Below, one piece after another: positions 828 to 43,445 of a DNA stretch of 64,000 nt (positions within the stretch are counted from its first letter, which is position 1; every line of letters starts with the position of its first letter). The notes under the pieces were generated by a model. It had not been told where the DNA came from, made no database searches, and was given only the letters and a program-made list of their open reading frames with translations. A program made the translations under genes and the position numbers. Source of the DNA: Mesorhizobium helmanticense (GTDB lineage: Bacteria > Pseudomonadota > Alphaproteobacteria > Rhizobiales > Rhizobiaceae). The DNA lies in contig NZ_PZJX01000025.1 in the NCBI RefSeq assembly GCF_003034915.1, forward strand, positions 1-64,000, given 5' to 3'.

Positions 828-1034
828 CTACTCCGGAAACTTCGAGACGATGATGAACATCACCGTGCCGGCCAGCATGGTGACGAAGGAATAGGTGTAG
901 AGCGACAGCGCGAAAGGCTGGAACAGCATCAGGAAGCCGATGGCGATGATCGCCGTGGCGATGTTTTCCATCAGCCCGCGCCTTGCCCACACCGGCCAGC
1001 GCGATTTGCGTTTTGCGGGTTGGGACAGGCTCAT
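828..1034 (-). CDS. Small two-helix membrane protein inside the ABC importer operon
   Basis: A 68-residue protein with a basic N-terminus (MSLSQPAKRKSRWPVWARR) followed by two hydrophobic segments at about residues 24-42 and 46-63. Its ATG overlaps the stop of the upstream permease gene (ATGA, 1031-1034) and its stop is 3 bases before the ATPase start, so it is almost certainly translated with the transporter. Small membrane proteins of this kind accompany some rhizobial glycerol/polyol importers (for example the GlpU position), but I cannot assign homology. It could be an accessory or stabilising subunit. I am confident that it is coding and unsure of its role. Confidence 0.75.
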   Translation of the reverse strand: MSLSQPAKRKSRWPVWARRGLMENIATAIIAIGFLMLFQPFALSLYTYSFVTMLAGTVMFIIVSKFPE

Positions 1035-1981
1035 TTGCGCACCGCGCCGAAGGTGATGCCGCGCAGCAATTGCTTGCGCAGCAGGATGGTGAAAACCAGG
1101 ATCGGCACCAGGAAGATCGTCGTGCCGGCGGCCACCGCTGGCCAGTCCTGCCCGCCTTCACCGATGATGGTCGGGATGAAGGGGGGCGCGGTCTGCGCCG
1201 TGCCCGACGTCAGGAGCGCGGCGAAGGCATATTCGTTCCAGGCGAAGATCAGGCAGAAGATTGCGGTCGCGGCAATGCCGGTGGTCGCCTGCGGCAAAAC
1301 CGTGCGCCAGAAGGCCTGCAGCCGCGTGTAGCCGTCGATCATCGCCGCTTCCTCATATTCGCGCGGGATCTCGTCAATGAAGCCTTTCAAGAGCCAGACG
1401 GCGAGCGACACGTTGACCGCCGTGTAGAGCAGGATCATGCCGAGCGCGGTATCGGAGAGGCCAAGCTCGCGATACATCAGGTAGATCGGAATCGCGACCG
1501 CGATCGGCGGCATCATGCGCGTCGACAGGATGAAGAACAAAAGATCGTCGGCCAGCGGCACCTTGAAGCGCGAGAAGCCATAGGCCGACAGCGTGCCGAG
1601 GAACACCGCGCAGAAGGTCGAGCCGAAGGCGATGATCAGCGAATTGACGAAGCGCGGCATGAAGTTGGACGGTCCGGCGATCACCATGTTGCGCTTGCGC
1701 ACGGTCTCGTCGCAGAAGCCGGTCGCCGGCCCGAGCGAGTTGATGTATTCCGGCGTCTGCCGCGTGCGCGTCGTGAACAAATTGCAATAGCCCTCGATGC
1801 TCGGCTGGAAGACGATCTTCGGCGGATAGGCGATCGAGTCCGGTGGCGTCTTGAAGCTGGTGGCGAAGATCCACAGCAGCGGCACGATCGAGATCAGCGC
1901 ATAGGCAACGATGATCGTGCCGGCGATAAGCTTCGCATTTGCCGAAGGTGCAACGACCGAATGGGCTGTGGTCAGGCTCAT
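1031..1981 (-). CDS. Sugar ABC transporter permease (MalG type)
   Basis: A 316-residue inner-membrane permease with six predicted helices. The ATPase-contacting EAA loop reads EYEEAAMIDGYTRLQAFWRT, close to the family consensus. It forms the membrane channel with the permease encoded upstream. Its ATG overlaps the last codon and stop of that gene by 4 bases (1978-1981), indicating translational coupling. A periplasmic loop near residues 75-105 (about YCNLFTTRTRQTPEYINSLG) is longer than in MalG itself. The substrate is unknown; sugars or sugar alcohols are most likely from the family. Confidence 0.95.
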   Translation of the reverse strand: MSLTTAHSVVAPSANAKLIAGTIIVAYALISIVPLLWIFATSFKTPPDSIAYPPKIVFQPSIEGYCNLFTTRTRQTPEYINSLGPATGFCDETVRKRNMVIAGPSNFMPRFVNSLIIAFGSTFCAVFLGTLSAYGFSRFKVPLADDLLFFILSTRMMPPIAVAIPIYLMYRELGLSDTALGMILLYTAVNVSLAVWLLKGFIDEIPREYEEAAMIDGYTRLQAFWRTVLPQATTGIAATAIFCLIFAWNEYAFAALLTSGTAQTAPPFIPTIIGEGGQDWPAVAAGTTIFLVPILVFTILLRKQLLRGITFGAVRK

Positions 1982-2964
1982 CTCTGCTTCACCTTGTTCA
2001 GCGCCTTGACGTAGATGTTGGCCAGCCCGAACACGGCGACGAACAGGATGATGGCGAAGGCCGAGGAATAGCCGGTGCGCCAGCTTTCGAAAGCCTGCCG
2101 CTTCAGCGTGATCGAGGCGACTTCCGTCGTCGAGCCCGGCCCGCCGCCGGTCAACAGAGTGACCATGTCGAACATCTTGAAGTTCTCGATGCCGCGAAAC
2201 AGCACCGCCAGCATGATGAAGGGCAGCGCCATCGGCAGCGTGATCGACCAGAACTGCCGCCAGTTGGAGGCGCGGTCGACCTCGGCCGCCTCATAGATGT
2301 ATTCGGGGATGGAGCGTAAGCCCGCGAGGCAGATCAACATCACGTAGGGCGTCCACATCCAGGTGTCGACGATGATGATCGACCACGGCGCCAGCGAGAC
2401 ATTGGACAGCATCTGGATATCGGTCGGCGGAATGCCCGACACGAAGGAGATGGCGTAGGCGAACAGCCCGATCTGCGGCTCGTAGAGGAAGCGCCAGAAA
2501 TTGCCGACCACGGCCGGCGACAGCATCATCGGCACCAGGATGATGGTCGTCCAGAAGGCGTGGCCGCGAAACTTGCGATCGATCAGCCAGGCGAGGGTAA
2601 AACCGATCAGCGTCTGCAGAAGAATGGTCCAGAACACGAAATGCGCCGTCGTCTGCATGGCGATCCAGATGTCCTGGTCTCCGAGGATGCGCTTGTAATT
2701 GGCAAGGCCGACATTCTTCACCACCTCGTTGGGGCGGTTGGCGCGGTAGTTGGTGAAGGAAAGATAGATCGCCCAGAACAGCGGGAAGATATTGATGGCG
2801 AGCAGCAACAGGATCGTCGGCGATATGAACAGCCAGGCGAGGCCCTTGTCGCTGATGCCCCGTACCTTGCGGGCCAACGGCTCAGGCGTGGCCCGGGCAA
2901 CGCTGTCCGCCGTCCGATTGAGCATGGTCAGTCCCGCTTCGGTCACTTCAAGTCGTCTCGACAT
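1978..2964 (-). CDS. Sugar ABC transporter permease (MalF/UgpA type)
   Basis: A 328-residue permease with a long cytoplasmic N-terminus (about 45 residues) and six helices. The EAA loop reads YIYEAAEVDRASNWRQFWSI. It pairs with the following MalG-type permease. The chosen ATG gives MSRRLEV; an internal ATG (MLNRTADSVA) is possible because the first residues are poorly conserved in such proteins. It is separated from the binding-protein gene by 71 bases containing a strong hairpin, which probably lowers its expression relative to the binding protein. Confidence 0.94.
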   Translation of the reverse strand: MSRRLEVTEAGLTMLNRTADSVARATPEPLARKVRGISDKGLAWLFISPTILLLLAINIFPLFWAIYLSFTNYRANRPNEVVKNVGLANYKRILGDQDIWIAMQTTAHFVFWTILLQTLIGFTLAWLIDRKFRGHAFWTTIILVPMMLSPAVVGNFWRFLYEPQIGLFAYAISFVSGIPPTDIQMLSNVSLAPWSIIIVDTWMWTPYVMLICLAGLRSIPEYIYEAAEVDRASNWRQFWSITLPMALPFIMLAVLFRGIENFKMFDMVTLLTGGGPGSTTEVASITLKRQAFESWRTGYSSAFAIILFVAVFGLANIYVKALNKVKQR

Positions 2965-2982
2965 TGGAATTTATCTGAACTG

Positions 2983-3010
2983 CGTCCCGTGCCAAGGGCG
3001 GCACGGGACG
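2983..3010 (-). promoter_or_regulatory. Intercistronic hairpin between binding-protein and permease genes
   Basis: A perfect 11-bp inverted repeat (CGTCCCGTGCC at 2983-2993 and its complement at 3000-3010) encloses a 6-base loop. There is no U-run after it on the minus strand. Hairpins at this place in ABC operons commonly protect the upstream binding-protein message or partly terminate transcription, giving more binding protein than permease. The structure is seen; the role is inferred. Confidence 0.6.
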
Positions 3011-3035
3011 CGCGGGTCTAGGCTCGGGAGGAGCC

Positions 3036-4367
3036 TTACATCTTGCCATCGTCCTGGAAGACCTCGGTCCAGTCCTTGACCAGGCCGTCAAGCGCATCCT
3101 TGGCCGATCCCTGGCCGGCGACGACATAGTCGTGGAAGCGCTTTTGCGACGCCTGCAGCAGCGGCGCGTAGCTGGGCTCGGCCCAGAAGTCCTTCACGAT
3201 GGCCATCGAGTCGAGGAAGGTCTGCGCATAGGGCTGGCTCGCCGGGAAGCTCGGGTCTTTCACCACGGCGTTGAGGCATGAATAGCCGCCGAGCGACCAC
3301 CATTTGGCCTGCACGTCCTTGTTGGCGAACCATTTGATATATTTGAGCGCCGCCTCCTGCTTGTCGGAATAGGACACCACCGAGATGCCCTGGCCGCCGA
3401 GCTGGGCGAACTGGTCGCCGTCTGGGCCCTTGGGATTGACGAAATAGCCGATCTTGTCGCCGCCGACATTCTCGTCCTTCTGCAGGCCTGGCCAGGTGAA
3501 GGCGAAGTTCATGTGCATCGCGACCTGGCCGGATTTGAAGGCATCGACGCCTTCGCCCATATAGCTGTTCGAGGCGCCGGGCGGGGTGCAGCAGTCATAG
3601 AGCGCCTTGTAGAATTCCAGCCCCTTCACCGATTTCTCGGAATTGACGAAGCCTTCCATCTCGTAGGGCTTCTTGGGGTTCTCGTACTGGAAGCCGAAGC
3701 TGTAGAGCACGTCCATGGCGCCCATGGTGATGCCTTCGGAGCCGCGCTCGGTATAGATCGAGGCGCCATAGACGGTCTTGCCGTCGATCTCGCGTTTCTG
3801 GAAGAACTCGGCGATCTGCTTGAGTTGGTCGAAGGTCGTCGGCGCGGCGAGATCCCAGCCATACTTCTCCTTGAATTCCTTCTGCAGTTCCGGCTTGGAG
3901 AACCAGTCCTTGCGATAGGTCCAGCCGACGACGTCGCCCATCGCCGGCAGCGCCCAGTAGTTCGGCGTGTTCTTCGGCCATTCCGAATAGCCGACGACGG
4001 TTGCGGGCACGAAGTCGTCCATGCTGATCTTCTCCTTGTCGAAGAAGTCGTTCAGCTTGACGTAGTGGCCGTTCTCGGCCGCGCCGCCGATCCACTGGCT
4101 GTCGCCAATGATCAGGTCGCACAGCTTGCCCTTGGAATTCAGCTCGTTGAGAAAACGGTCGGCATAGTTGGTCCACGGCACGAACTCGAACTTCATGCCG
4201 ATGCCGGATTCCTTGGTGAAGTCCTTGGACAATTCCACAAGCGCGTTGGCCGGGTCCCAAGCTGCCCAGCAAAGCGTCAGGTCTTCCGCATGCGCGACGT
4301 TCGAGACGGCTGTCGACGCCAACATCGCCGAGGCCAGACCCAACGTCAGTTTCAAGGTCGATTTCAT
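3036..4367 (-). CDS. Extracellular solute-binding protein, family 1 (sugar/polyol ABC importer)
   Basis: A 443-residue periplasmic binding protein that delivers substrate to the permeases encoded downstream. The first 27 residues are a Sec signal peptide (basic start, hydrophobic stretch, cleavage after VAHA). The mature protein has the two-lobed family-1 pattern, with phrases such as SGIGMKFEFVPWTNYADRF near the start and a GQGISVVSYSDKQEAALKYI segment in the C-terminal lobe. It is the first gene of the operon and lies about 100 bases downstream of a dyad operator. The ligand is not identifiable; a sugar or sugar alcohol is the family expectation. Confidence 0.95.
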   Translation of the reverse strand: MKSTLKLTLGLASAMLASTAVSNVAHAEDLTLCWAAWDPANALVELSKDFTKESGIGMKFEFVPWTNYADRFLNELNSKGKLCDLIIGDSQWIGGAAENGHYVKLNDFFDKEKISMDDFVPATVVGYSEWPKNTPNYWALPAMGDVVGWTYRKDWFSKPELQKEFKEKYGWDLAAPTTFDQLKQIAEFFQKREIDGKTVYGASIYTERGSEGITMGAMDVLYSFGFQYENPKKPYEMEGFVNSEKSVKGLEFYKALYDCCTPPGASNSYMGEGVDAFKSGQVAMHMNFAFTWPGLQKDENVGGDKIGYFVNPKGPDGDQFAQLGGQGISVVSYSDKQEAALKYIKWFANKDVQAKWWSLGGYSCLNAVVKDPSFPASQPYAQTFLDSMAIVKDFWAEPSYAPLLQASQKRFHDYVVAGQGSAKDALDGLVKDWTEVFQDDGKM

Positions 4368-4468
4368 GCCTTCCTCCCATTTGCGAAACGCGTCCGGATG
4401 ACGGTTTCAAGAAACCTTGACCCCCCTCCTCAGGGGCCCAAACACGGCGGCGCGATCGCGCCGCCAAT

Positions 4469-5958: not shown

Positions 5959-8421
5959 ATGAAGATGAGAGCCTTGCCGGACCTTCCGGTGTCCGCCGTG
6001 CTGCCGGCCCTGAGCGAAGCGCTCGGCAGCGGCAACGCCGCCGTGCTGGTGGCGCCGCCCGGCGCCGGCAAGACGACGTTGGTGCCGCTGGCGCTGCTCG
6101 ACGCGCCATGGCTTGGCACCGGCAAGATCGTCCTGCTCGAGCCGCGCCGGCTCGCCGCCCGCGCCGCCGCCCGCCGCATGGCCGAGCTTATCGGCGAGGA
6201 GCCTGGCGAAACCGTCGGCTATGCCATGCGCATGGAAAACCGCATTTCGGCGCGGACAAAAATCCTCGTCGTCACCGAAGGCGTCTTGTCGCGCATGATC
6301 CTCGACGATCCGGAGCTACCCGGCGTCTCGGCGGTGATCTTCGACGAATTCCACGAGCGTTCGCTCGACGGCGATTTCGGTCTGGCGCTGGCGCTCGACG
6401 TGCAGGGCGCGCTCAGGCCCGATCTGCGCCTGCTGGTGATGTCGGCGACGCTCGACGGCGCGCGCGTCGCCAGGCTGCTGTCCGCAGCGCCGGTGATCGA
6501 GAGCGAGGGCCGCGCCTTCCCGGTCGATGTCCGCTACGACGAGCGACCGGCCGGCATCGCTATTGAGGACGCCATGGCCAAGGCGATCCGTTCGGCACTT
6601 GCCGAGGAAAGCGGCAGCGTGCTCGCCTTTCTGCCCGGCCAGCGCGAGATCGAGCGCACCGCCGAGCGGCTGGCGGGCAGGGTCGGCGCCGACACCGATA
6701 TCGTGCCGCTCTATGGCCAGCTCGACGGCAAGGCGCAGGATGCGGCGATCAGGCCGGCACCGCCGGGCCGCCGCAAGGTGGTGCTGGCAACCTCGATCGC
6801 CGAGACCTCGATCACCATCGACGGCGTGCGCGTCGTTATCGATTCCGGCCTGTCGCGTCTGCCGCGCTACGAGCCGGCCAGCGGCCTGACGCGGCTGGAG
6901 ACGGTGCGTGTTTCGCGTGCATCGGCCGATCAGCGCGCCGGCCGCGCCGGCCGCACGCAAGCTGGCATCGCCATCCGGCTGTGGCGGGCCGAGCAGACGT
7001 CGGCACTGCCCGCCTTCACCCCGCCGGAGATCCTCGAGGCCGATCTTTCCGGCCTGCTGCTCGATTGCGCCGCCTTCGGCGTTGCCGATCCGGTAAGCCT
7101 CGCCTTCCTCGATCCGCCGCCGGCCCCGGCGCTCAACGAGGCAAGGGCACTGCTGCGCGCGCTCGACGCCATCGACGAAGCAGGGCGCCTGACGGACGCG
7201 GGTGCCGCGATGCGCAAGCTGGCGCTGCCGGTGCGGCTGGCGCATATGGTTGCCGAGGCCGCCAGGACCGGGCAGGCCTATGAGGCGGCCATGCTGGCCG
7301 TGCTGCTCACCGAGCGCGGTCTCGGCGGTGATGGCGCCGACCTCGAACGGCGGCTGATGCGGTTTCGCACCGAAAGATCGCCGCGCGCTACAGCGGCGCG
7401 GCAGCTTGCAGAGCGGCTGGCGAAACAGGCCGGTGGCGGGAGAAACAATGAGCAGGCCTTCGCCGGCGCCCTCCTCATCCATGCCTGGCCGGACCGCGTG
7501 GCGAGGGCGCGTGGCGAGCGTGGCCGGTTCGTGCTGGCCAACGGCTCCGGCGCCATGCTGGACGCCGCCGATCCGCTGGCCGGCGAGGCCTGGCTGGTCG
7601 TCGCCGACCTGCAGGGCAAGGCGCAGAACGCCCGCATCACCGCGGCAGCCGCGGTCGATGAGGCCGATATTCGTGCGGCACTCGCGGAGAAAATCGAGAC
7701 CCGCCGGGAAACCGGCTTCGACCGCGACAGGCGTGCAGTGCGCATGCGCGAGATCGTCCGCCTCGGCGCCATCACGCTCTCCGAGCGCATGCTGCCGGCG
7801 CCATCGGGCGCAGATGCGGATCGCGCCATCCTGGACGCCTTGCGCGAACATGGCCTCTCGCTTTTGCCGTGGAGCAAGGAGGCGCAAACGCTGCGCCAGC
7901 GGCTTGGCTGGCTGCATCGCGGCCTTGGCGCGCCCTGGCCCGACATGTCCGATGCCGCACTTCTCGAACGCCTCGACGACTGGTTGCTGCCGTTTCTTGC
8001 CGGCGCTGCATCCTTCGCCGCGATCGATCAGGGCGTGCTTTCGGCCGGCCTCATGACCCTGGTGCCGCACGACCTCCAGCGCAAGGTCGAGGCGCTGGCG
8101 CCGACCCATTTCGACGCGCCGTCAGGCAGCCATGTACCGATCCGCTATGACGGGGAATGGCCGGTGCTGGCGGTCCGTGTGCAGGAGCTTTTCGGTCTCG
8201 ATCGGCATCCGGCGATCGCCAATGGCACGGTGCCGCTGACGCTCGAACTCTTGTCGCCGGCGCACCGGCCGATCCAGACGACGCGCGACCTGCCCGGCTT
8301 CTGGCGCGGTTCCTGGGCCGATGTTCGCACCGACATGCGCGGCCGCTACCCCCGCCATGTCTGGCCGGAGAACCCGCTTCTCGCCACCGCCACCAGCCGC
8401 GCCAAGCCGCGCGGGACGTGA
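5959..8421 (+). CDS. hrpB: ATP-dependent helicase HrpB (DExH family)
   Basis: An 820-residue superfamily-2 RNA/DNA helicase. It shows Walker A in APPGAGKTTLVPL (near residue 33), the DExH box as DEFHER, which is typical of HrpB, motif III SATLDG, and motif VI QRAGRAGR. The C-terminal HrpB domain follows, with the normal length of about 820 residues. The cellular role of HrpB is poorly defined. It is encoded immediately upstream of the ActS/ActR pair, as in other Rhizobiales. The ATG gives MKMRALPDLPVSAVLPALSE. Confidence 0.96.
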   Translation: MKMRALPDLPVSAVLPALSEALGSGNAAVLVAPPGAGKTTLVPLALLDAPWLGTGKIVLLEPRRLAARAAARRMAELIGEEPGETVGYAMRMENRISARTKILVVTEGVLSRMILDDPELPGVSAVIFDEFHERSLDGDFGLALALDVQGALRPDLRLLVMSATLDGARVARLLSAAPVIESEGRAFPVDVRYDERPAGIAIEDAMAKAIRSALAEESGSVLAFLPGQREIERTAERLAGRVGADTDIVPLYGQLDGKAQDAAIRPAPPGRRKVVLATSIAETSITIDGVRVVIDSGLSRLPRYEPASGLTRLETVRVSRASADQRAGRAGRTQAGIAIRLWRAEQTSALPAFTPPEILEADLSGLLLDCAAFGVADPVSLAFLDPPPAPALNEARALLRALDAIDEAGRLTDAGAAMRKLALPVRLAHMVAEAARTGQAYEAAMLAVLLTERGLGGDGADLERRLMRFRTERSPRATAARQLAERLAKQAGGGRNNEQAFAGALLIHAWPDRVARARGERGRFVLANGSGAMLDAADPLAGEAWLVVADLQGKAQNARITAAAAVDEADIRAALAEKIETRRETGFDRDRRAVRMREIVRLGAITLSERMLPAPSGADADRAILDALREHGLSLLPWSKEAQTLRQRLGWLHRGLGAPWPDMSDAALLERLDDWLLPFLAGAASFAAIDQGVLSAGLMTLVPHDLQRKVEALAPTHFDAPSGSHVPIRYDGEWPVLAVRVQELFGLDRHPAIANGTVPLTLELLSPAHRPIQTTRDLPGFWRGSWADVRTDMRGRYPRHVWPENPLLATATSRAKPRGT

Positions 8422-12839: not shown

Positions 12840-13766
12840 ATGAGCGTCCTTTCCGAGCCACATTTCCACAACGAAGAAGCTGCTTTCGAGCGGCTGGAAG
12901 CGATTGTGTGGCCGGAAGGTCCGGTTTGCCCGAAGTGCGGGAACTGCGAACAGAACCGCATTACCCGCGTCACCGGGACGACCGCTCGCACCGGCCTTCG
13001 CCGCTGCCTGGAATGCAAGAAACAGTTCACCGTGAAGGTTGGAACGGTGTTCGAAAGCAGCCATGTGCCGCTGCATAAATGGTGGCAGGCGGCGCATCTT
13101 CTGGCGTCCAGCAAGAAGGGTATTAGCGCTCATCAGCTGCACCGGACTTTGCAGGTCCAGTACAAGACAGCTTGGTTCATGTTTCATCGCTTGCGCGAGG
13201 CTATGCGCGATGGCGTCCTTTCCCCGATGGGCGGCGAAGGCAAGCATGTCGAAGTTGACGAGACTTACATTGGCCGTCTGAAAGGCGCGCCGGTAAAGGC
13301 TGGCGGCTCTCATAAGAACACGGTCGTTACGCTTGTCGAGCGCGGCGGCCGTGCCCGTTCCTTCCACGTCGATACCGCCCGCATGGGCAATGTCATGCCG
13401 ATAGTTCGCGCCAACATCGCTCGCGAGAGCGCCTTGATGACTGACGAGAGCGGCATCTATCGCCGCGCCGAACAGGATTTCGCTTCCCACGATTTTGTCA
13501 CGCACTCCAAAGACGAGTATATTCGCGGTGACGTAAATACGAATACCGTGGAAGGCTACTATTCGATCTTCAAGCGTGGCATGAAGGGCATCTATCAGCA
13601 TTGCGGTGAGCAGCACTTGCACCGCTATCTTGCTGAATTCGACTTTCGCTACAGCAACCGCATCGCGCTTGGCGTCGATGACAACAACCGGACGGTAAGG
13701 GCTATGGCTGGCATCGTTGGAAAACGACTGAAGTACCGGGACTCATCGGGCGTCGGGGCGGAATAG
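12840..13766 (+). CDS. IS1595-family transposase (ISXO2-like, DDE)
   Basis: A 308-residue transposase. The N-terminal zinc ribbon is formed by CPKCGNC (about 30-36) and CLECKK (about 56-61), the hallmark of the IS1595 family. The catalytic residues are visible as Asp140 in VEVDETYIG, Asp202 in MTDESGIY and Glu238 in TNTVEGYYSIFK. Length and motifs are complete, so the protein should be active. It is followed 8 bases later by the first cargo gene and probably shares its transcript. Confidence 0.95.
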   Translation: MSVLSEPHFHNEEAAFERLEAIVWPEGPVCPKCGNCEQNRITRVTGTTARTGLRRCLECKKQFTVKVGTVFESSHVPLHKWWQAAHLLASSKKGISAHQLHRTLQVQYKTAWFMFHRLREAMRDGVLSPMGGEGKHVEVDETYIGRLKGAPVKAGGSHKNTVVTLVERGGRARSFHVDTARMGNVMPIVRANIARESALMTDESGIYRRAEQDFASHDFVTHSKDEYIRGDVNTNTVEGYYSIFKRGMKGIYQHCGEQHLHRYLAEFDFRYSNRIALGVDDNNRTVRAMAGIVGKRLKYRDSSGVGAE

Positions 13767-13774
13767 GCGAGAAA

Positions 13775-14629
13775 ATGGACCGTGTCGTCATAACGGTGCA
13801 CCCCACCGTCTCCGACGAAAAGTTGCTGAGCGTCACCGACGCCATGCAGCAGGTTCTCGACCACATGAAGCTATTTGAGGCCGCTCAGCAGTCGATGGGC
13901 GACCCGCACTCGCGTTTTGAGTGGAGGCTAGAGAAAGCCAGCACCAATAGCCCGTTTACTGTCGTTGCCGTTGCGCAAGCGTCCAATCCTTCGGTCAATG
14001 TGTCGGCCATGGCTAAGCTCGTCAAAACCGAAGTCTCGCAAGGTCTTCGAAGCCTCATGACGCGCGGCACTCCTCCGGAATGGATGACGCAAGATACCTT
14101 CGCTGTTGCCAAAGGCATCTTCGCCAGAAATCTAAACGGCATCGGTGAGACTTATATTGATTTTGAAGACGGTGACGTGATCTCGATCACGCCCGATCAG
14201 GCGAAAGCCGGTATCAACACGCTTGATGCTTTCAACGTGATGGATTTCGAGCAAGATCTAGTGCCGCGACAGTCGTTCGGCGAGATTGAAGGAGTGATGC
14301 TTGCGGCTGGTCGTTATCGCAATAGAGAGGCTATCCAGATCAAAAACGAAATGTATGGCTTCATCTGGTGCACTCTTTCCAGAGACATAATCGAAAGGTT
14401 CGGTGACGAGCATTCCATGAGCGATATTTGGAAGGGAAAGACCCTTGGGGTACATGGGCGGCTCAACTACATCGCCGGCGGAAAATTGCAGACCATAGAC
14501 GCGGTCGAAGTGCGGGAAATAGAGTTTGCCCCTCTTGTGAATTTGGAAGCGATACTTGATCCTGATTTTACGGCGGGGATGGACCCTCACGAATATTTAG
14601 AGCAATTGCACGAAGGGCGGCTTGGCTAA
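13775..14629 (+). CDS. Transposon cargo gene 1, unknown protein paired with a PIN nuclease
   Basis: A 284-residue soluble protein with no signal peptide or membrane helix and no motif I recognise. A C-terminal stretch near residues 222-252 (KTLGVHGRLNYIAGGKLQTI) looks like a small beta-barrel or OB-like fold. It begins 8 bases after the transposase and overlaps the PIN gene by 8 bases, the arrangement expected of an antitoxin-toxin pair, although it is much larger than known VapB antitoxins. Its base composition is lower in GC than the host genes. The function is unknown; a regulator, sensor or inhibitor of the PIN protein is a reasonable inference. Confidence 0.85.
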   Translation: MDRVVITVHPTVSDEKLLSVTDAMQQVLDHMKLFEAAQQSMGDPHSRFEWRLEKASTNSPFTVVAVAQASNPSVNVSAMAKLVKTEVSQGLRSLMTRGTPPEWMTQDTFAVAKGIFARNLNGIGETYIDFEDGDVISITPDQAKAGINTLDAFNVMDFEQDLVPRQSFGEIEGVMLAAGRYRNREAIQIKNEMYGFIWCTLSRDIIERFGDEHSMSDIWKGKTLGVHGRLNYIAGGKLQTIDAVEVREIEFAPLVNLEAILDPDFTAGMDPHEYLEQLHEGRLG

Positions 14630-15128
14630 AAGAGTGTATTGGGATTCCTGTACGTTTCTCGGCCTCATAAACCAGGAGCCGGGCAAGCTGAATAATTGTG
14701 CCGCAGTGTGGAAGGAAGCCGAAGTCGGCGACGTACTGATCTACACGTCATTCTTCACCTTTGCGGAGGTCTTCAAGGCGAAGTGCGAGGACGCCGGCAA
14801 GCCGCTTTCTGAGGATGGCGATAAGCAAATCGAATTGTTGCTGCGGCAAAAATGGATTCGCGCGGTCGTCGTTGACGAAAAGATTGGTGTCGCCTGTCGA
14901 AGGCTTATGAGACATCACACCGAATGCAAGAAGCCATCCGATGGCATCCATTTGGCAACGGCGCTGGCCTTGAACGTCGATGAGATGCACACGTTCGATG
15001 GGGCCGATTTGCTCATGCTGGACGGTAAGGTGAACCGCGCTGATGGCAAGCCGCTGAAAATCTGCCCTCCAAAACCAACGCCTAAGCCACCTAAGCCGCA
15101 GCACGATATATTTGAGGGCGCCCAATGA
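14622..15128 (+). CDS. Transposon cargo gene 2, PIN-domain nuclease (VapC-like)
   Basis: A 168-residue PIN-domain protein, the fold of VapC toxins and other Mg-dependent RNases. The acidic site is complete: Asp8 in VYWDSC, Glu49 in FAEVFK, Asp107 in PSDGIHLATAL and Asp126 in TFDGAD. The last 25 residues are proline/lysine-rich (PPKPTPKPPKP), absent from ordinary VapC. It starts with TTG inside the end of cargo gene 1 and its stop overlaps the ATG of gene 3 (ATGA). It probably cleaves RNA; whether it is a toxin controlled by gene 1 is inferred. Confidence 0.88.
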   Translation: MAKRVYWDSCTFLGLINQEPGKLNNCAAVWKEAEVGDVLIYTSFFTFAEVFKAKCEDAGKPLSEDGDKQIELLLRQKWIRAVVVDEKIGVACRRLMRHHTECKKPSDGIHLATALALNVDEMHTFDGADLLMLDGKVNRADGKPLKICPPKPTPKPPKPQHDIFEGAQ

Positions 15129-15316
15129 CCGCGAAGCACAAGTCCGCAGAGCGGGATGACGCAACACAGTCGCGCGCGTTCATAGAGAAGGCGCGCGAGA
15201 TTGAAGCGGACGAAGGGAAATCCGATGCCGATGCCCTAATGGGCAAGCTGGCGCGGACGCCACCCAGTCAAAAGAAGGTTATGCCTTCGAAACACGGATC
15301 AAAGCAAAATAAATGA
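15125..15316 (+). CDS. Transposon cargo gene 3, small charged protein
   Basis: A 63-residue, highly charged, probably partly disordered protein (starts MTAKHKSAERDDATQ, ends lysine-rich KKVMPSKHGSKQNK). It overlaps the neighbours on both sides by 4 bases (ATGA at 15125 and 15313), so it is translated as part of the cargo operon. No family recognised. Its size and charge would suit a small antitoxin or adaptor, but nothing shows this directly. Confidence 0.7.
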   Translation: MTAKHKSAERDDATQSRAFIEKAREIEADEGKSDADALMGKLARTPPSQKKVMPSKHGSKQNK

Positions 15317-15714
15317 TACGACATGACGCAAAGATCGATGACTTGGAGGTGCTAACGTCTGGAGTCCTTGTTTTCTATAAGGATCAAACTGTTGAAATAT
15401 ATCCGTTCGTGGAAGACGGGGATACGGACTATAAATTGGTTGTAACCGTCGCGCTATCTGACGACGCAGATGAAAGAGCAAATATAAAAGTCATTCCGGA
15501 TACTGGAAAAGAGTCTATTGTGAATGTCACTGTATCTAGGGGATTCAAGCCCGGACCATTCTCTACAACCAGGCCGGTTGGTATCGCCAATGACAAAGAT
15601 TCAGACTTTCTGCTGTCTTGTGTTGTAGATATTGTAGGGAAGAGTGCCGATCGATACACTGTTATTTTTACGTATACGGTCTTGAAGAAGGGCAGGGCGG
15701 GCGATGGTCGCTAA
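15313..15714 (+). CDS. Transposon cargo gene 4, beta-rich protein of unknown function
   Basis: A 133-residue protein with alternating hydrophobic residues suggesting a beta-sandwich (for example YKLVVTVALS and YTVIFTYTVL). No catalytic motif is apparent; it may belong to the DUF6864 group, but I am not certain. The gene is noticeably AT-rich compared with the host chromosome. It overlaps gene 3 by 4 bases and gene 5 by 11 bases. Likely a binding or scaffold partner of the membrane protein encoded next. Confidence 0.75.
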   Translation: MIRHDAKIDDLEVLTSGVLVFYKDQTVEIYPFVEDGDTDYKLVVTVALSDDADERANIKVIPDTGKESIVNVTVSRGFKPGPFSTTRPVGIANDKDSDFLLSCVVDIVGKSADRYTVIFTYTVLKKGRAGDGR

Positions 15715-36828: not shown

Positions 36829-39108
36829 ATGGCCAGGAAAACTGAAAACAACGGCCCCTCCGTCAGTGCCCAGGAGGCGCTGGAGTTCCACGCCATGGGC
36901 CGGCCCGGCAAGCTGGAGATCGTTGCCACCAAGCCGATGGCGACGCAGCGCGATCTGAGCCTTGCCTATTCACCGGGCGTCGCGGTGCCTGTCCTTGCCA
37001 TTGCCGAGGACCCAAGCCGCGCTTTCGACTATACGACGCGCGGCAACATGGTCGCCGTCATCTCCAACGGCACCGCCATCCTCGGCCTCGGCAACCTTGG
37101 CGCGCTGGCCTCCAAGCCGGTCATGGAAGGCAAGGCGGTGCTGTTCAAGCGCTTCGCCGATGTCGATTCCATCGATCTCGAGGTCGATACCGAGGATGCC
37201 GACGAATTTATCAACTGCGTGCGCTATCTCGGCCCTTCCTTCGGCGGCATCAACCTCGAGGACATCAAGGCGCCGGAATGCTTCATCATCGAGCAGCGCC
37301 TGCGCGAATTGATGGATATTCCGGTCTTCCACGACGACCAGCATGGCACCGCCATCATCTCGGCCGCCGGCCTGATCAACGCGCTGGAGATCACCGGCCG
37401 CGACATGAAGACCACCAAAATGGTCTGCAATGGCGCCGGTGCGGCCGGCATCGCCTGCATCGAACTGATGAAGGCGATGGGTTTTTCGCCGGAGAATATC
37501 ATCCTGTGCGACACCAAGGGCGTCGTCTTCCAGGGCCGCACCGAAGGCATGAACCAGTGGAAGTCGGCGCATGCGGTCAAGACCGAGGCGCGCTCGCTGG
37601 CCGAGGCGCTCGACGGCGCCGACGTCTTCCTCGGCCTCTCCGCCAAGGGTGCGCTGACCGCCAAAATGGTACAGTCGATGGCCAAAAACCCGATCATCTT
37701 CGCCATGGCCAATCCCGATCCGGAGATCACGCCGGAGGAGGTGGCCAAGATCCGCACCGACGCCATCATGGCCACCGGCCGTTCGGACTATCCGAACCAG
37801 GTCAACAACGTGCTGGGTTTCCCCTACATCTTCCGCGGCGCGCTGGATGTACGCGCCACCACCATCAACGACGACATGAAGATCGCAGCCGCACGAGCGC
37901 TCGCCGAGCTGGCGCGCCAGGACGTGCCCGACGACGTCGCCGCCGCCTATCAGGGCAACCGGCCGAAATTCGGCCCCAGCTACATCATCCCGGTGCCGTT
38001 CGATCCGCGCCTGATCGCGGCCATCCCGATGGCGGTGGCCAAGGCGGCGATGGACAGCGGCGTCGCCCGCAAGCCGATCCTCGATCTCGACCGCTACGCG
38101 CAGGAACTGTCGGCCCGCCGCGATCCGATCGCATCGACCTTGCAGCGCATCTACGACCGCGTCCGCCGCCAGCCCAAGCGCATCGTCTTCGCCGAGGGCG
38201 AGGAGGAGCAGGTCATGCGCGCCGCCGTCTCCTATGTGAACCAGCGGCTCGGCACCGCCATCCTGCTCGGTCGCGACGACGTCATCAAGGAGAACGCCAG
38301 GCATGCCGGCATCGAGCTCAACAAGCAGGGCATCGAGATCATCAACGCCAGGCTGTCGCGCCGCAACAGCGTCTACACCGACTATCTCTACGAGCGCATG
38401 CAGCGCAAGGGCTTCCTGTTCCGCGACTGCCAGCGCCTGATCAACAATGACCGCAACCATTTCGCCGCCTGCATGGTGGCGCTGGGCGACGCCGACGGCA
38501 TCGTCACCGGCGTCACCCGCAACTATTCGACCGCGCTCGACGACATCCGCCGCGTCATCGACGCCAAGCCCGGCCACCGTGTCATCGGCGCCTCGATCGT
38601 GCTGGCGCGGGGCCGCACCGTGATCGTCGCCGATACCGCCGTGCACGACATGCCGAATGCCGAACAGATCGCCGACATCGCCGAGGAGGCCGCCGGCTTC
38701 GCCCGCCGCATGGGCTACGAGCCAAGGCTCGCCATGCTCGCCTATTCGACGTTCGGCCACCCGCAGGGCGAGCGCTCCGAGCGCGTCCAGGAAGCGGTGC
38801 GTATTCTCGACAAAAGGCGCGTCGATTTCGAGTATGACGGCGAGATGGCCGCCGACGTGGCGCTCAATTCGCGCGCCATGGCGCAATACCCGTTCATCAG
38901 GCTCACCGGCCCGGCCAATGTGCTGATCATGCCGGCCTTCCACTCGGCCTCGATCTCGACCAAGATGCTGCAGGAACTCGGCGGCTCCACCGTCATCGGC
39001 CCGCTGCTGGTCGGCTTGAACAAGCCGGTGCAGATCGTCTCGCTCAACGCCAAGGACTCGGACATCGTGAATATGGCGGCCATCGCGGCTTATACCGCGG
39101 GGGCCTGA
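36829..39108 (+). CDS. maeB: NADP-dependent malic enzyme with phosphotransacetylase-like domain
   Basis: A 759-residue chimeric malic enzyme converting malate to pyruvate. Malic enzyme domain at about 20-430, with [10 protein letters not shown], the metal-binding [10 protein letters not shown] and a NADP site in [11 protein letters not shown]. The C-terminal 320 residues are a phosphotransacetylase-like domain (from [17 protein letters not shown]), known in rhizobia to regulate rather than catalyse. Rhizobia have two such enzymes (Dme and Tme); I cannot tell which this is. Confidence 0.95.
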
Positions 39109-39193
39109 AATGCCAAAAATTCAACAGACACCTAACGTCAGAAAGGCTCTCTTAGCAAAGACCAGGGGCGACAACAGATCAACAGATAGCACG

Positions 39194-41026
39194 TTAGACG
39201 TCATTTTTCCTTACTTGGTCAACGAGCTCCTTCACATATTTAACTAAGGGAGAAAGTTGGTCAGGTTTTTTTAAAAAAATGTATTTTAGAAGAAATAAAG
39301 AGTCTGCCTTCTTTGAAAAAGTGACTTTACATTCAGACGTCTCAGAGCATACACGATTTATAAACCTCGCAGCATCAAGCGCGCCAAGCCAATTGGGATC
39401 CGCAATATCTCCCCGCCATTTGCGATTATTGAATTCCTTTTGTGGGCCCAGCTCCAGAATTTTCTTCCTAATGATCTCACCTGAGACCGAGGTCGATCCA
39501 TCAACATCCTTTTCGGCAATAAATGCCGCGATAGCTTCTGGGTCCACTAGGTAGCATTCCAAGTGACGTCTAGGCAAGAAATGGACTAAACCCCCAGATT
39601 CTCTTCGCATTTCGGCGCACTGTTCAGGCGAGAGTTTCTCGGTATCGAAGCTGAATACGACAGAAACTCTAAGAGGCGTAGTTGCAGAGCTAAGTCGTTT
39701 GTACACGTCATAGACCAGTGCGCGGCTACGACGGCCAGTCATAAAATCCCCTGTAGCGGAAACCGCTGTAAAAATGATACCTCTTAGTTCAGAACTACCG
39801 CTATGCTGATAGATAAGTGGGAAACACAGTTCTTCGGTGGGACCTTCAACCCAAATTATCCGTTCTGCTGCAAAGACATCCGCCATGGAAACGCCAAGGT
39901 GCTCGGCAACGTTGCGAAACGCGTCAACATCATCAAGCTTGAGGGGTTCAATGCTTGACTCGTAACCTGTTCGTTTCACAATGTGAATGGTATCTGGATC
40001 ACAGAAACTTATGACTTCCGGCGCGTGCGTAGAAATTATATACTGATGGCTACCGTAATGGGTCTTGATGACACGTATAAGAGACTTGACCGCCGATGGA
40101 TGAAGAAAACTGTTGATCTCGTCAATAATGATCACGGAATCATTAATAGTCATAATGGCGGTAAGTATTGCAATTGCTTGAGCTACACCGGTGCCACTGG
40201 CATTTAACGGAAAGCTGAGTTCGACGGCGTTCATTTCCTCGGTGGGCCAAACTCGTATTTCGAGTTGGTTGTTGTTGGGATTAGGCCTGACGCTCAAATT
40301 ACCTACGGTGGGGAAGATATCTCGCAAATGACTTACCAGTTTTTGGAACATAGTTCCACGGCTTCCGATCAAGGTATGAAGGACAGCCGGAAGGTTCTGT
40401 GCATCTGGAGTCAATCTATCAGCATGGGAGTGAGCCGACTCGCCGATGGCGAAGCGCTCCGCTGAAAAGTAAAACATGTTTCTCTGCCACAGCTCCCAGA
40501 CAATTTGTGCTCCGTCGTCGGTGTCAGATCGCGTAACTGTGTGATACTTTATCTCTCCATTGACGGCAGATAAGGATATGGAATTCTTCTTGTGTTGGCC
40601 TAGAGAAAAATTGCCGCATGCTGGATAAGCGCGCGATTGAAAATTCGTGCTTGAGTGATTAATCACATCAACAATAATAGTTGGCCAGCTAAAAAGGTTT
40701 TTAATTTGGTCAGCAGGACTGCCATTTTGCTCGCTTTGATGTAGCACAGGTAGATTCGCTGAACCTCTAATAAGAATCGTCTCTTCCAATTCGGCTCCTG
40801 TAACCCGAATTGTCAACTCGACCCTCGGTTGAGGGACTTGATGATTACTATATCTCTGAGGGGCGCGATGCCTGTCGTCTTTCAAGGCGGGTTGCAGAGC
40901 ACGCAGAACAGAACTCTTGCCAGAGTTGTTTTGCCCAACTATTAGATTTATTCCGGATTGAAATAATATATTGCCCGAATCGCCAAATGACTGAAAGCCG
41001 TGAATTCGCGCTTTTGATATCCACAT
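39194..41026 (-). CDS. OLD-family ATPase with TOPRIM-type nuclease domain
   Basis: A 610-residue protein. The N-terminal ABC-type ATPase has Walker A GQNNSGKSS (31-39) and a Walker B/D-loop region DSVIIIDEINSFLHPSAV near 300, with a switch histidine in ISTHAPEV. The C-terminal region has a TOPRIM-type glutamate in WVEGPTEEL (Glu394) and an acidic FSFDTEK (Asp461). This matches OLD-like and related phage-defence nucleases such as GajA. It is strikingly AT-rich compared with the flanking maeB and other genes and stands alone, with no helicase or reverse-transcriptase partner. Likely horizontally acquired; an anti-phage role is inferred. Confidence 0.85.
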   Translation of the reverse strand: MWISKARIHGFQSFGDSGNILFQSGINLIVGQNNSGKSSVLRALQPALKDDRHRAPQRYSNHQVPQPRVELTIRVTGAELEETILIRGSANLPVLHQSEQNGSPADQIKNLFSWPTIIVDVINHSSTNFQSRAYPACGNFSLGQHKKNSISLSAVNGEIKYHTVTRSDTDDGAQIVWELWQRNMFYFSAERFAIGESAHSHADRLTPDAQNLPAVLHTLIGSRGTMFQKLVSHLRDIFPTVGNLSVRPNPNNNQLEIRVWPTEEMNAVELSFPLNASGTGVAQAIAILTAIMTINDSVIIIDEINSFLHPSAVKSLIRVIKTHYGSHQYIISTHAPEVISFCDPDTIHIVKRTGYESSIEPLKLDDVDAFRNVAEHLGVSMADVFAAERIIWVEGPTEELCFPLIYQHSGSSELRGIIFTAVSATGDFMTGRRSRALVYDVYKRLSSATTPLRVSVVFSFDTEKLSPEQCAEMRRESGGLVHFLPRRHLECYLVDPEAIAAFIAEKDVDGSTSVSGEIIRKKILELGPQKEFNNRKWRGDIADPNWLGALDAARFINRVCSETSECKVTFSKKADSLFLLKYIFLKKPDQLSPLVKYVKELVDQVRKNDV

Positions 41027-41244
41027 CTGCCCCTCATGGTCGTTCTATCTTGCTTGTCGCCATTAATCGGGCGGTCATTTTGCACCAGGCTTAGCTGTTG
41101 TAAAAATGCCGCAGAGCCATGCGACTAGGACGTGATTCAGAAGGCAACGCCAAAAAGAATTCGTTGAGCGAGGATCCAGTCATATACTTCGACTTGGGCA
41201 GCTTGACGAGACCGTCGTGGCTCGGCCACCCAACAGAGGCAAAA

Positions 41245-41268
41245 GCCTTCCCCGCATGCGGGGAAGGC
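41245..41268 (-). terminator. Perfect 24-bp palindrome, probable terminator
   Basis: GCCTTCCCCGCA and its exact complement form a 12-bp-arm palindrome with no spacer. On the minus strand it follows the stop of the 225-residue protein gene by 34 bases and is followed by TTTT, so it can act as a Rho-independent terminator. The rest of the 275-base gap (41027-41301) shows only a short tandem copy of CAGATACAT. Confidence 0.6.
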
Positions 41269-41301
41269 CAGATACATCCAGATACATGGTGATGGGATAG
41301 C

Positions 41302-41979
41302 TTACTGCCAGCCGCGGCAGCTCTGATAGGCATGCCGCCAGTAGCGCCAGCCGGTCGTCTTCCATTTCCAGAATTCATAGCCGCAGCCACCATGGTCGGA
41401 AGCGACGATCGTCACGCCGCCCCAGAACCAGGAGCCGTGCTTGTGATGGCCGTGGTGACTGCCGTGCGGGCCGTCATGGTCCTTGCCGGGTTTGCATCCG
41501 AACACCTTGCAATGCAGCTTGGGCCTATGCTTCAGGATCGGCGGCTTGGCCTTGCAGCCAGTCACGGCGCAGTCGATTTTCGCATTTATCCTGGGGCGGA
41601 TCTTGTCGCCAAGGGACGGCAGCTTGCCTGCTGGGCTGAAGGTTTGGGTGCGACGGGCGAGGCGCGTTTGCGGCATTGCCGAATTCTGCTTCACGGCCTG
41701 TGAAATGCCGTGTTTCATCTTGAACTTGTTTTCTTCGGCCTGGGCGCCGTTGGTGACGGCCATGGCTCCGATGATTGTCGCCAGCAGCAGGACGATGCCG
41801 GGGAGGCGACGTCCGATGCTGAACATCGATGTCAGGCGCGCCATGCCCTTGGTGGGCACGGCCGATCTTTCCTGACGCGCGCGAGCCATCGCGCCGGTGT
41901 AGAGTTTTTCATGCTGCGTCGGCGTCAACGCGCCGGGATCGACGCCGCTGAAAGCGTCGACTGCTGCGGGAGTAAACAT
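41302..41979 (-). CDS. His/Trp-rich protein with one membrane segment, unknown function
   Basis: A 225-residue protein. A cytoplasmic N-terminus of about 55 residues (including LTPTQHEKLYTGAMARARQE) precedes one hydrophobic segment at about 60-78. The exported part is basic and has cysteine-containing repeats (IDCAVTGCKAKPP and LHCKVFGCKPGK), then a histidine-rich block (HGSHHGHHKHG) and a tryptophan-rich end (FWKWKTTGWRYWRHAYQ). The repeats and histidines suggest metal binding. No family recognised; composition is host-like. Confidence 0.7.
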   Translation of the reverse strand: MFTPAAVDAFSGVDPGALTPTQHEKLYTGAMARARQERSAVPTKGMARLTSMFSIGRRLPGIVLLLATIIGAMAVTNGAQAEENKFKMKHGISQAVKQNSAMPQTRLARRTQTFSPAGKLPSLGDKIRPRINAKIDCAVTGCKAKPPILKHRPKLHCKVFGCKPGKDHDGPHGSHHGHHKHGSWFWGGVTIVASDHGGCGYEFWKWKTTGWRYWRHAYQSCRGWQ

Positions 41980-42190
41980 CTTCCTGATCCTTCAGTTGGT
42001 TAGCGGCCTCGACCGCGGAGCCGTCCCGACGGGTTCGCTCCATGGCGCGGTTTTTCGCTGCCGCCTGTTTCGGATGAATGCCGAAACTCGACTGAAGTGT
42101 TTCAATTGTTGCGGTTCGACCATGCAGCGTGAGGGCAAAAAGCCGCCGCCGGTACGCCACAACGTCCCCTCAAGGGGGAGGCAAAAATCC

Positions 42191-43183
42191 CTAAATCAGC
42201 CCCGCCTGCTCGGCCTCGTGGCGCAAATTCTGGCGCGGCCTTGGCCCGATCTGCTGGATGACCAGCCCGGCCGCCAGCGAGCCGAGATCGCCGCACGCCT
42301 TGAGACTGCGGCCTTGCGTGTAGCCGTAGAGGAAACCTGCGGCATAGAGGTCGCCGGCGCCTGTCGTGTCGACCAATTCCCTGATTCTCGTCGCCTGGAT
42401 GGTGACGGTTTCGTCGCCGCGCACGATCACCGATCCCTTTTCCGAGCGGGTGACGGCGGCGATCTTGCAGTCCTTGCGGATCCGCGCCAGCGCCTCGTCG
42501 AAGGAGGCGGTCTGGTAGAGCGACTTGATCTCGTGGCTGTTGGCAAAGACGATGTCGACGGTGCCCGAGCGCATCAAATCGAGGAACTCGTCGCGGTAGC
42601 GGTCGACGCAGAACGAATCCGACAGCGTCATCGACACTTCGCGCCCCGCCGCATGCGCGAGTTTCGCCGTCTGCCGGATCGCTTCCTTGGCGCGCGGCGG
42701 GTCCCACAGATAGCCTTCGAAATAGGTGACCGCCGCACCCGAAGCCTTGTCCGCCTCGACATCCTCCGGGCCGAGCTCGATACAGGCGCCGAGATAGGTG
42801 TTCATCGAGCGCTCGCCGTCGGGCGTCACGAAGATCATCGAGCGCGCCGTCGGCGGTTCGCCCTGAAGCGGCCTTGTGTCGAAGGCGACGCCCTGCGCAT
42901 GGATGTCATGGGCATAGATCTCGCCGAGCGGGTCGTTCGAGACCTTGCCGAAGAAGGCGGCGCGTCCGCCGAAGGAGGCGACGCCCGCCGCCGTGTTGCC
43001 GGCGCTGCCGCCGGAGGCTTCGATCGCCGGCCCCATGCGGCTGTAGAGCAGTTCGGCGCGGTGGGTGTCGATGAGGTTCATCGCGCCCTTGATGATGCCG
43101 TTCGTCTCCAGGAATGCCTCGTCGCACTGGGCGATGATGTCGACAATGGCATTACCGATGCAAAGCACGTCATAGTCCGGCAT
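42191..43183 (-). CDS. Adenosine kinase / PfkB-family sugar kinase
   Basis: A 330-residue ribokinase-family kinase. N-terminal CIGNAIVDIIAQ and the glycine pair GGSAGNTAAGVASFGG form the substrate side; the anion hole and catalytic base are in DTTGAGDLYAAGFLYG (near 285). Rhizobial proteins of this length and pattern are annotated as adenosine kinases. The ATG at 43183 (MPDYDVLC) has GGAG 8 bases upstream; a TTG at 43198 would add five residues. The 211-base gap downstream to 41980 shows no feature. Confidence 0.9.
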   Translation of the reverse strand: MPDYDVLCIGNAIVDIIAQCDEAFLETNGIIKGAMNLIDTHRAELLYSRMGPAIEASGGSAGNTAAGVASFGGRAAFFGKVSNDPLGEIYAHDIHAQGVAFDTRPLQGEPPTARSMIFVTPDGERSMNTYLGACIELGPEDVEADKASGAAVTYFEGYLWDPPRAKEAIRQTAKLAHAAGREVSMTLSDSFCVDRYRDEFLDLMRSGTVDIVFANSHEIKSLYQTASFDEALARIRKDCKIAAVTRSEKGSVIVRGDETVTIQATRIRELVDTTGAGDLYAAGFLYGYTQGRSLKACGDLGSLAAGLVIQQIGPRPRQNLRHEAEQAGLI

Positions 43184-43445
43184 CAATATCTCCGCCAAGA
43201 ACCCACCGGCTTTTCTGCCACGCCGGCCGCAGGCGGGTCTAGCGATTTGCTGCTACTTTGCCTACCCCGAAAATCATCGCACGCTTGGCGGCGGCGGTTG
43301 GTCGCCGGCTGCTGCAGCCATCGCATCGAACTGGATCATATCAGCCGCCAAGCCTGCGGGTATGGTTGCATCCACATCGAAGCGTTTCGCTTGGGTGGTA
43401 GGCTAGAAGCAGACCGATCGAAGTTTCCGAAGGCGCGGACAAGCT

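Follow-up and report, generated by a model that had tools for sequence, protein, structure and literature searches.

A 2023 review names two open points: whether broad phage defence can come from an OLD protein acting alone, and whether fused AriAB proteins make up a separate class (PMC10568477). Lone examples have been reported since, namely Vibrio cholerae OLD and YbjD (PMC13261556). Both points are raised by a 64,000-nucleotide stretch of the Mesorhizobium helmanticense genome (hereafter the window), in which a solitary AT-rich gene for a 610-residue ABC-ATPase–Toprim protein lies behind maeB in GC-rich surroundings. How did this gene come to lie there, which known proteins does it resemble, and is it a defence system in its own right?

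A foreign single-gene insert behind maeB

The original prediction had placed an OLD-type gene at positions 39194-41026, limits that are exact and to which we add the minus strand; the gene and maeB (36829-39108, plus strand) are convergent. As had been proposed, its base composition is unlike that of maeB and the other neighbours: GC content is 0.46 over the whole gene and 0.45-0.48 in 500-base windows within it, against 0.61-0.71 in windows more than 500 bases away, and GC3 is 0.442 compared with 0.884 for maeB. The top-scoring AT-rich segment spans 39106-41195. A promoter scan returned one weak site 5' of the gene, with the number of sites at chance level.

To delimit the insert, the DNA between 38500 and 42300 was compared with 119 genomes of the genus, our own included. 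Three close relatives (G076, G040 and G501) are empty at the site: their match ends at the last base of maeB, 39108, and restarts at 41241, with 22, 23 and 36 bp between. The insert thus runs from 39109 to about 41240 and exceeds the ORF in size; the tail of a further ORF within it (41094-41231) has no match in 101 genomes beyond our own, nor in plasmids. The stretch 3' of maeB could be retrieved for 113 of the 118 other same-genus genomes, and although 14 of the resulting 114 maeB loci are incomplete, through a contig end or the end of the retrieved stretch, that of the window is not among them. The gene is found in none of the 113 other loci, so that the comparison of the maeB downstream region suggested earlier speaks against a gene conserved at this place across the genus with host-like composition. 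Moreover, the insert holds this one gene without a partner, as predicted, flanked by maeB and a convergent 225-residue ORF (41302-41979).

The borders carry no obvious signature. A single two-copy 14-nt direct repeat (86%) and no inverted repeats occur in 38900-41500, which agrees with the predicted lack of repeats at the limits, and a repeat-borne insertion was rejected for want of flanking repeats. At the far side, the hairpin at 41245-41268 is probably the terminator of the convergent ORF, judging by its sequence; a terminator scan made no call at this position, and the A-rich run at the hairpin is longer in relatives. We also considered whether the maeB 3' end of the window had been replaced: identity to the nearest relative is 95% over 600 bases and 87% over the final 60. 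However, 22 of 102 insert-free loci are equally low, and we therefore make no such claim. The gene is horizontally acquired, well bounded and mobile (table 1). Elsewhere in the window, a second AT-rich patch (12840-15714, GC 0.51-0.57) holds what we take to be an IS1595-like transposase, a PIN-like ORF and two hypothetical ORFs.

Table 1. Features of the insert, its borders and the encoded protein (window coordinates)
Feature	Position	Strand	Remarks
maeB (name from the original prediction)	36829..39108	+	left border of hotspot; 3' end present in 113 other genus genomes
Foreign insert (~2.1 kb)	39109..~41240		base after maeB stop to return of homology with empty relatives
Family gene (610-aa stand-alone ABC-ATPase-Toprim ORF, intact)	39194..41026	-	ATG at 41026, stop at 39194; Pfam AAA_15, AAA_21
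C-terminal Toprim and helical part, residues 386-610	39197..39871	-	model pLDDT 91.5, pTM 0.88
K572, candidate catalytic lysine, helical part	39311..39313	-	34/34; putative role from BpOLD K562 (PMC6755086)
E490, candidate second-metal ligand	39557..39559	-	34/34; putative role from BpOLD E508 (PMC6755086)
D461xE463, counterpart of Toprim DxD	39638..39646	-	D461 34/34, E463 33/34
Toprim E394 to E398 (EGPTE)	39833..39847	-	both glutamates 34/34
ATPase part, residues 1-380	39887..41026	-	SMC, Rad50, PtuA heads, VIA-align Z 17-20
Walker B end D302-E303	40118..40123	-	34/34
Walker A GQNNSGKS, residues 31-38 (K37)	40913..40936	-	G31, N33, G36, K37 identical 34/34
GAGGGGCAG, ribosome-binding-site-like (putative)	41027..41035	-	directly 5' of ATG, by sequence reading
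Hairpin (perfect 24-base palindrome) at far side of insert	41245..41268		TTTTG after palindrome on minus strand
Kinase-like gene	42191..43198	-	right border used in hotspot survey

The maeB 3' side as a cargo hotspot

The 3' side of maeB is a cargo hotspot. Its right border in our survey is a gene that presumably encodes a sugar-kinase-like protein, and the maeB–kinase interval ranges from 14 to 7856 bp across 100 closed loci (median 2565). In the 77 genomes where both intervals could be measured, it spans 945-7857 bp and exceeds 3 kb in 16, whereas the interval from kinase to transporter is 184-1299 bp, with a median of 259 and a single value over 1 kb. In several relatives, the stretch at which the kinase-like gene ends (42190-42296) also matches a second site at more than 90% identity, perhaps a paralogue.

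AT-rich inserts were called by a cut-off of our own choosing (at least 1200 bases in 500-base windows below 55% GC), which nine of the 114 maeB loci pass; since at least 700 AT-rich bases occur in 45 of the 114, many of them through common porin-like genes and the borders, smaller inserts may have been missed. One locus (L136) was dropped because its ORF resembles the porin-like ones that are common at the hotspot (69-76% identity), which leaves eight of 114, that of the 610-residue protein included. The other cargos comprise a Hachiman system (G044; HamA 7.6e-129, HamB 4.9e-287), a TIR protein (G069; PDC-S66 9.2e-22, TIR_2 5.9e-29) beside a second ORF with no PADLOC match, and a type IIG restriction-methylase (G492; 8.2e-55) beside an ORF that we take to be PIN-like and that likewise has no PADLOC match. 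Mutually related NACHT-like ATPases occur in G010 and G491; that of G491 scores slightly below the NACHT cut-off, has no PADLOC match and is interrupted, about 600-1570 behind maeB, by two ORFs that are presumably IS630-like and transposase-like (L092). G017 carries a gene with a weak NACHT match (8.3e-4) and no PADLOC match, and G001 a 277-residue ORF with 79% identity to the second G017 gene. Overall, three of the eight AT-rich cargos are clear or likely defence genes, four, among them the 610-residue protein's, are candidates, and one is of unassigned function. The spot also holds ordinary genes, presumably encoding, among others, a GGDEF-type enzyme and porin-like proteins.

One locus may retain a trace of how cargo enters. 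In G017 (L122), the two cargo genes are separated by a 114-bp duplicate of the maeB 3' end (86%), which follows the first of them and might have arrived as the maeB end of the incoming DNA itself; this is a single case, and matches to the maeB end at the other maeB loci are only 22-40 bases long. No report of a maeB hotspot was found in the literature, as judged from titles and the openings of abstracts.

A rare family of about 40 relatives

A scan of genome contigs with a five-sequence alignment returned 45 loci; the single protein had returned none from the same contigs. The alignment covers most of the chain at 38 loci (L159-L196, 25-59% identity), and the remaining seven are partial matches, mostly to the ATPase end. 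Three of the 38 are frame-broken (L159, L166 and L178), L173 ends after 489 residues, and L177 and L187 begin at a contig edge. Further members are a full-length copy on a viral contig (L204), one on a conjugative plasmid of Rhizobium jaguaris (51%) and one in G494 (52%). A phage gene as such was rejected, with no match among 50,697 phage records, yet L204 is a full-length relative on a viral contig. The family, of about 40 relatives, is rare and has no conserved partner. Its tree spans five phyla (Pseudomonadota, Nitrospirota, Cyanobacteriota, Acidobacteriota and Bacteroidota), and the 34 full-length members are 595-676 residues long. Occurrence was 4/150, 2/397 and 2/398 genomes, our own included each time and with few candidates scored per genome. 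The family may already figure in the ABC-ATPase classification paper or the V. cholerae OLD paper.

The genomic setting recurs. Gene GC is below locus GC in 39 of 40 loci, and a contrast is seen in 30 of the 32 with sufficient flank; the AT-rich stretch ends within 250 bp of the gene on either side in 18 of these 30 and reaches further in 12. Leaving aside broken halves of the gene itself, any adjacent gene recurs at two of the 40 loci (our own included) at most. Within 5 kb, no neighbour is common to more than four loci: of three clusters, one covers four loci and one three, neither of them directly next to the gene, and the last again consists of its broken halves. L166 and L170 share flanks at 85-92% DNA identity and are thus one site with one copy broken. 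The five Mesorhizobium copies require three changes on the tree and form one clade in no bootstrap tree, and may reflect several gains, or fewer gains and losses; the other four, and the copy in G036, lie elsewhere in their genomes, since their maeB loci lack the gene.

At a PADLOC threshold of 1e-12, at most about six of 100 scanned ORFs near the relatives matched (282 nearby ORFs in all), a weak sign of defence islands, the models being mad3 (two), LmuA, mad8 and PDC-S15. In M. sangaii (L163), a low-GC ORF of 206 residues that we take to be caspase-like (CHAT-like) precedes the family gene (7207-7824, plus strand). The surroundings of the family gene on the R. jaguaris plasmid (L007, 1353-5171) include a ParDE-type toxin-antitoxin pair and a large gene of the SIR2 family.

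Domain anatomy and conserved residues

The protein has the SMC/Rad50-like ATPase features of the superfamily (Walker A, Walker B and an H-loop histidine) and the E and DxD-type acids of a C-terminal Toprim fold, for which the best structural matches are AriB, BpOLD, XccOLD and TsOLD. The motifs that the original prediction described as intact are indeed so: K37, D302, E303, H309, H334, E394 and D461 are identical in all 34 aligned members, which extend down to 25% identity, and D427 is kept in 31. AAA_15 (1.6e-18, 67.9 bits, cut-off 32.1) and AAA_21 (4.4e-14, 53.7 bits, cut-off 27) are well matched, and Pfam OLD-like_TOPRIM is sub-threshold for this protein. Compared with the PDB by sequence, the Toprim part alone gave no significant match (E 0.03, chance level), and no model had a best stretch covering the whole chain among the best 25 of 157 PADLOC or the best 25 of 43 NCBIfam matches, the NCBIfam scores being far below their cut-offs. 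In the C-terminal model, helices extend from residue 496 to 607.

Relationship to known systems

The earlier description as OLD-type and GajA-like holds at the level of the superfamily, that is, an ABC-ATPase carrying a nuclease-like Toprim domain at its C terminus. It fails in its narrower sense: there is no helicase gene, the Old match is weak and the C-terminal part is as AriB-like as it is like any OLD. Whole-chain Foldseek ranks the OLD effector of retron Eco8 (Class 3) first (5.9e-14), with GajA (2.8e-11) and TsOLD (3.3e-11) following, and PDB profile matches include GajA (1.1e-12), Eco8 OLD (1.2e-12) and TsOLD (1.5e-11). The whole-chain matches to Eco8 and PtuA rest mainly on the ATPase part. 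When the C-terminal part is aligned by itself with VIA-align, AriB comes first (Z 11.3, 189 aligned, rmsd 4.1; a second AriB entry 10.2), ahead of BpOLD (9.6), XccOLD (8.8-9.2), TsOLD (8.2), GajA (7.0) and Eco8 (only 6.8); reading of the neighbouring ORFs likewise revealed none that is reverse-transcriptase-like, as an Eco8-type retron would have. The best PADLOC E-value belongs to the candidate defence ATPase HEC-01A (1.5e-25), which matches all 34 members, but its 363-position model covers only residues 196-369 of the ATPase part and leaves the Toprim part unmatched.

The likeness to Gabija GajA (Class 2 OLD) lies in the candidate catalytic residues, which are the same set in the same order, including a lysine in the C-terminal helical part, and PADLOC GajA models match pieces of the protein. 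In BpOLD these residues are E400, E404, D455, D457, E508 and K562 (PMC6755086). The order in the 610-residue protein is that of BpOLD, with the second acid of the DxD replaced by E, and the predicted helices would be compatible with a putative active-site lysine supplied by the helical domain as in Class 2. Membership of Gabija was nevertheless rejected in the absence of a helicase gene, the neighbours being maeB and the 225-residue ORF and no adjacent partner being shared across the 40 loci. A probable Gabija pair, separate from this gene, is found elsewhere in the same genome (L218, G000:C66:6000-14000), where a 599-residue OLD/GajA-like gene (ORF 2611-4410, minus strand; Old model 2.1e-30) overlaps a 614-residue gene (ORF 837-2681, minus strand) that we take to be a UvrD-like helicase.

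Two rival readings deserve weighing. One, possible though doubtful, overlaps with ours and differs in the substrate: the protein might be a DNA nuclease of the Class 1 OLD kind, directed at phage DNA or responding to failed RecBCD-type repair, as in the textbook view of P2 Old. Class 1 comprises solitary genes by definition (PMC10568477), and the present gene, like those of P2 Old, Thermus scotoductus OLD (TsOLD), V. cholerae OLD and E. coli YbjD, is a single isolated gene joining an N-terminal ABC-ATPase to a C-terminal Toprim domain. P2 Old residues K37, E398, E402, D453, D455 and K550 all have counterparts in it, the catalytic layout is that of the DNA-cutting BpOLD (PMC6755086), and the profile matches to GajA, Eco8 OLD and TsOLD point the same way. 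Against this, TsOLD is described as having no C-terminal helical domain and as about 50 residues shorter than Class 2, whereas the C-terminal helical part of the 610-residue protein is long and contains an invariant lysine; its C-terminal fold is nearer to AriB and BpOLD than to TsOLD, and the PADLOC Old match is weak and fragmented (1.5e-9), its pieces ending where the Toprim part begins. Alternatively, and rather less probably, the gene could be a divergent single-gene PARIS, in which an AriA-like part that senses phage anti-restriction proteins is fused to an AriB-like tRNase. PARIS likewise combines an ABC-ATPase and a Toprim domain in one system, AAA_15 and AAA_21 exceed their cut-offs, and AriB leads the VIA-align ranking; of the 34 C-terminal parts, moreover, 22 are matched by PADLOC AriAB (best 2.3e-8) and three by Old, and the AriAB match on the window protein, at model positions 330-554 of 694 (2.0e-9), starts in the ATPase end and continues into the Toprim part. 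However, PARIS fusions are detected through DUF4435 (PMC9122126), and this domain (PF14491) gives a match in none of the 34 C-terminal parts at E 0.01, compared with 26 of 34 for OLD-like_TOPRIM, on which ground strict membership was rejected. The protein is also shorter (610 residues against 694 model positions), Foldseek of the C-terminal part puts BpOLD (1.0e-3) over AriB (3.5e-3), and the AriAB model finds matches in 14 of 14 control genomes, so the ATPase share of its score is unspecific. Since the structural and sequence lines disagree in part, the best reading of these comparisons is that the family sits between Class 1 OLD and fused PARIS, falling strictly within neither.

Function and proposed mechanism

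We propose, with a probability of roughly 0.6, that the gene encodes a horizontally acquired stand-alone ABC-ATPase–Toprim nuclease, that this protein belongs to the OLD/PARIS superfamily and that it most likely acts as a one-protein phage-defence system. Defence is probable on the indirect grounds of superfamily, sparse distribution and the presence of defence genes at the same spot in other genomes; the scarcity of defence genes near relatives counts against it. A role outside defence, whether as an ATPase-nuclease of host DNA or RNA metabolism or as a selfish or neutral passenger, appears unlikely. Broken copies within the family (three of 40 frame-broken and one ending early) imply a dispensable gene, and ordinary genes, as we take the GGDEF-type and porin-like occupants to be, use the same spot; but both active sites are sharply conserved across five phyla, which argues against a neutral passenger, and the patchy distribution in AT-rich inserts argues against a core host role.

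In the proposed defence system, the SMC/Rad50-like ATPase part would oligomerise and keep the C-terminal domain in check; a phage product or damaged DNA would then alter the nucleotide state of the ATPase part and lift this inhibition. The Toprim site would bind two metals, one through E394, D461 and E463 and the other through E398 and E490, with K572 acting at the transition state, and the activated domain would cut nucleic acid and so stop the infected cell. As substrate, by analogy, host tRNA may be slightly ahead of DNA: AriB cleaves host tRNA (PMC12409363) and P2 Old reportedly cleaves a host tRNA (cited in PMC13261556), and TsOLD and GajA cleave DNA (PMC10568477). A simple transfer of function would be unsafe, because the phage phenotype of YbjD is independent of its Toprim domain (PMC13261556) and archaeal Cran1 is reported to be non-defensive (PMC12796447). 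More tentatively, these proteins may constitute a separate, undescribed class, pairing an SMC-like ATPase with a Toprim domain that resembles AriB, cuts tRNA or DNA and has a Class-2-type catalytic lysine, and moving alone among ordinary genes in at least five phyla; the same speculative picture would include an undescribed Mesorhizobium defence hotspot behind maeB, with cargo exchanged by recombination in the maeB 3' end.

Implications

What is new here is a set of about 40 relatives in five phyla, their invariant candidate active-site residues and the cargo hotspot on the 3' side of maeB. For Mesorhizobium, the region behind maeB offers a convenient target in the search for further defence genes. 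In the space between Class 1 OLD and fused PARIS, the family contributes some 40 proteins whose active sites are conserved and most of which stand alone, so that sensor, switch and nuclease can be tested together in one small gene.
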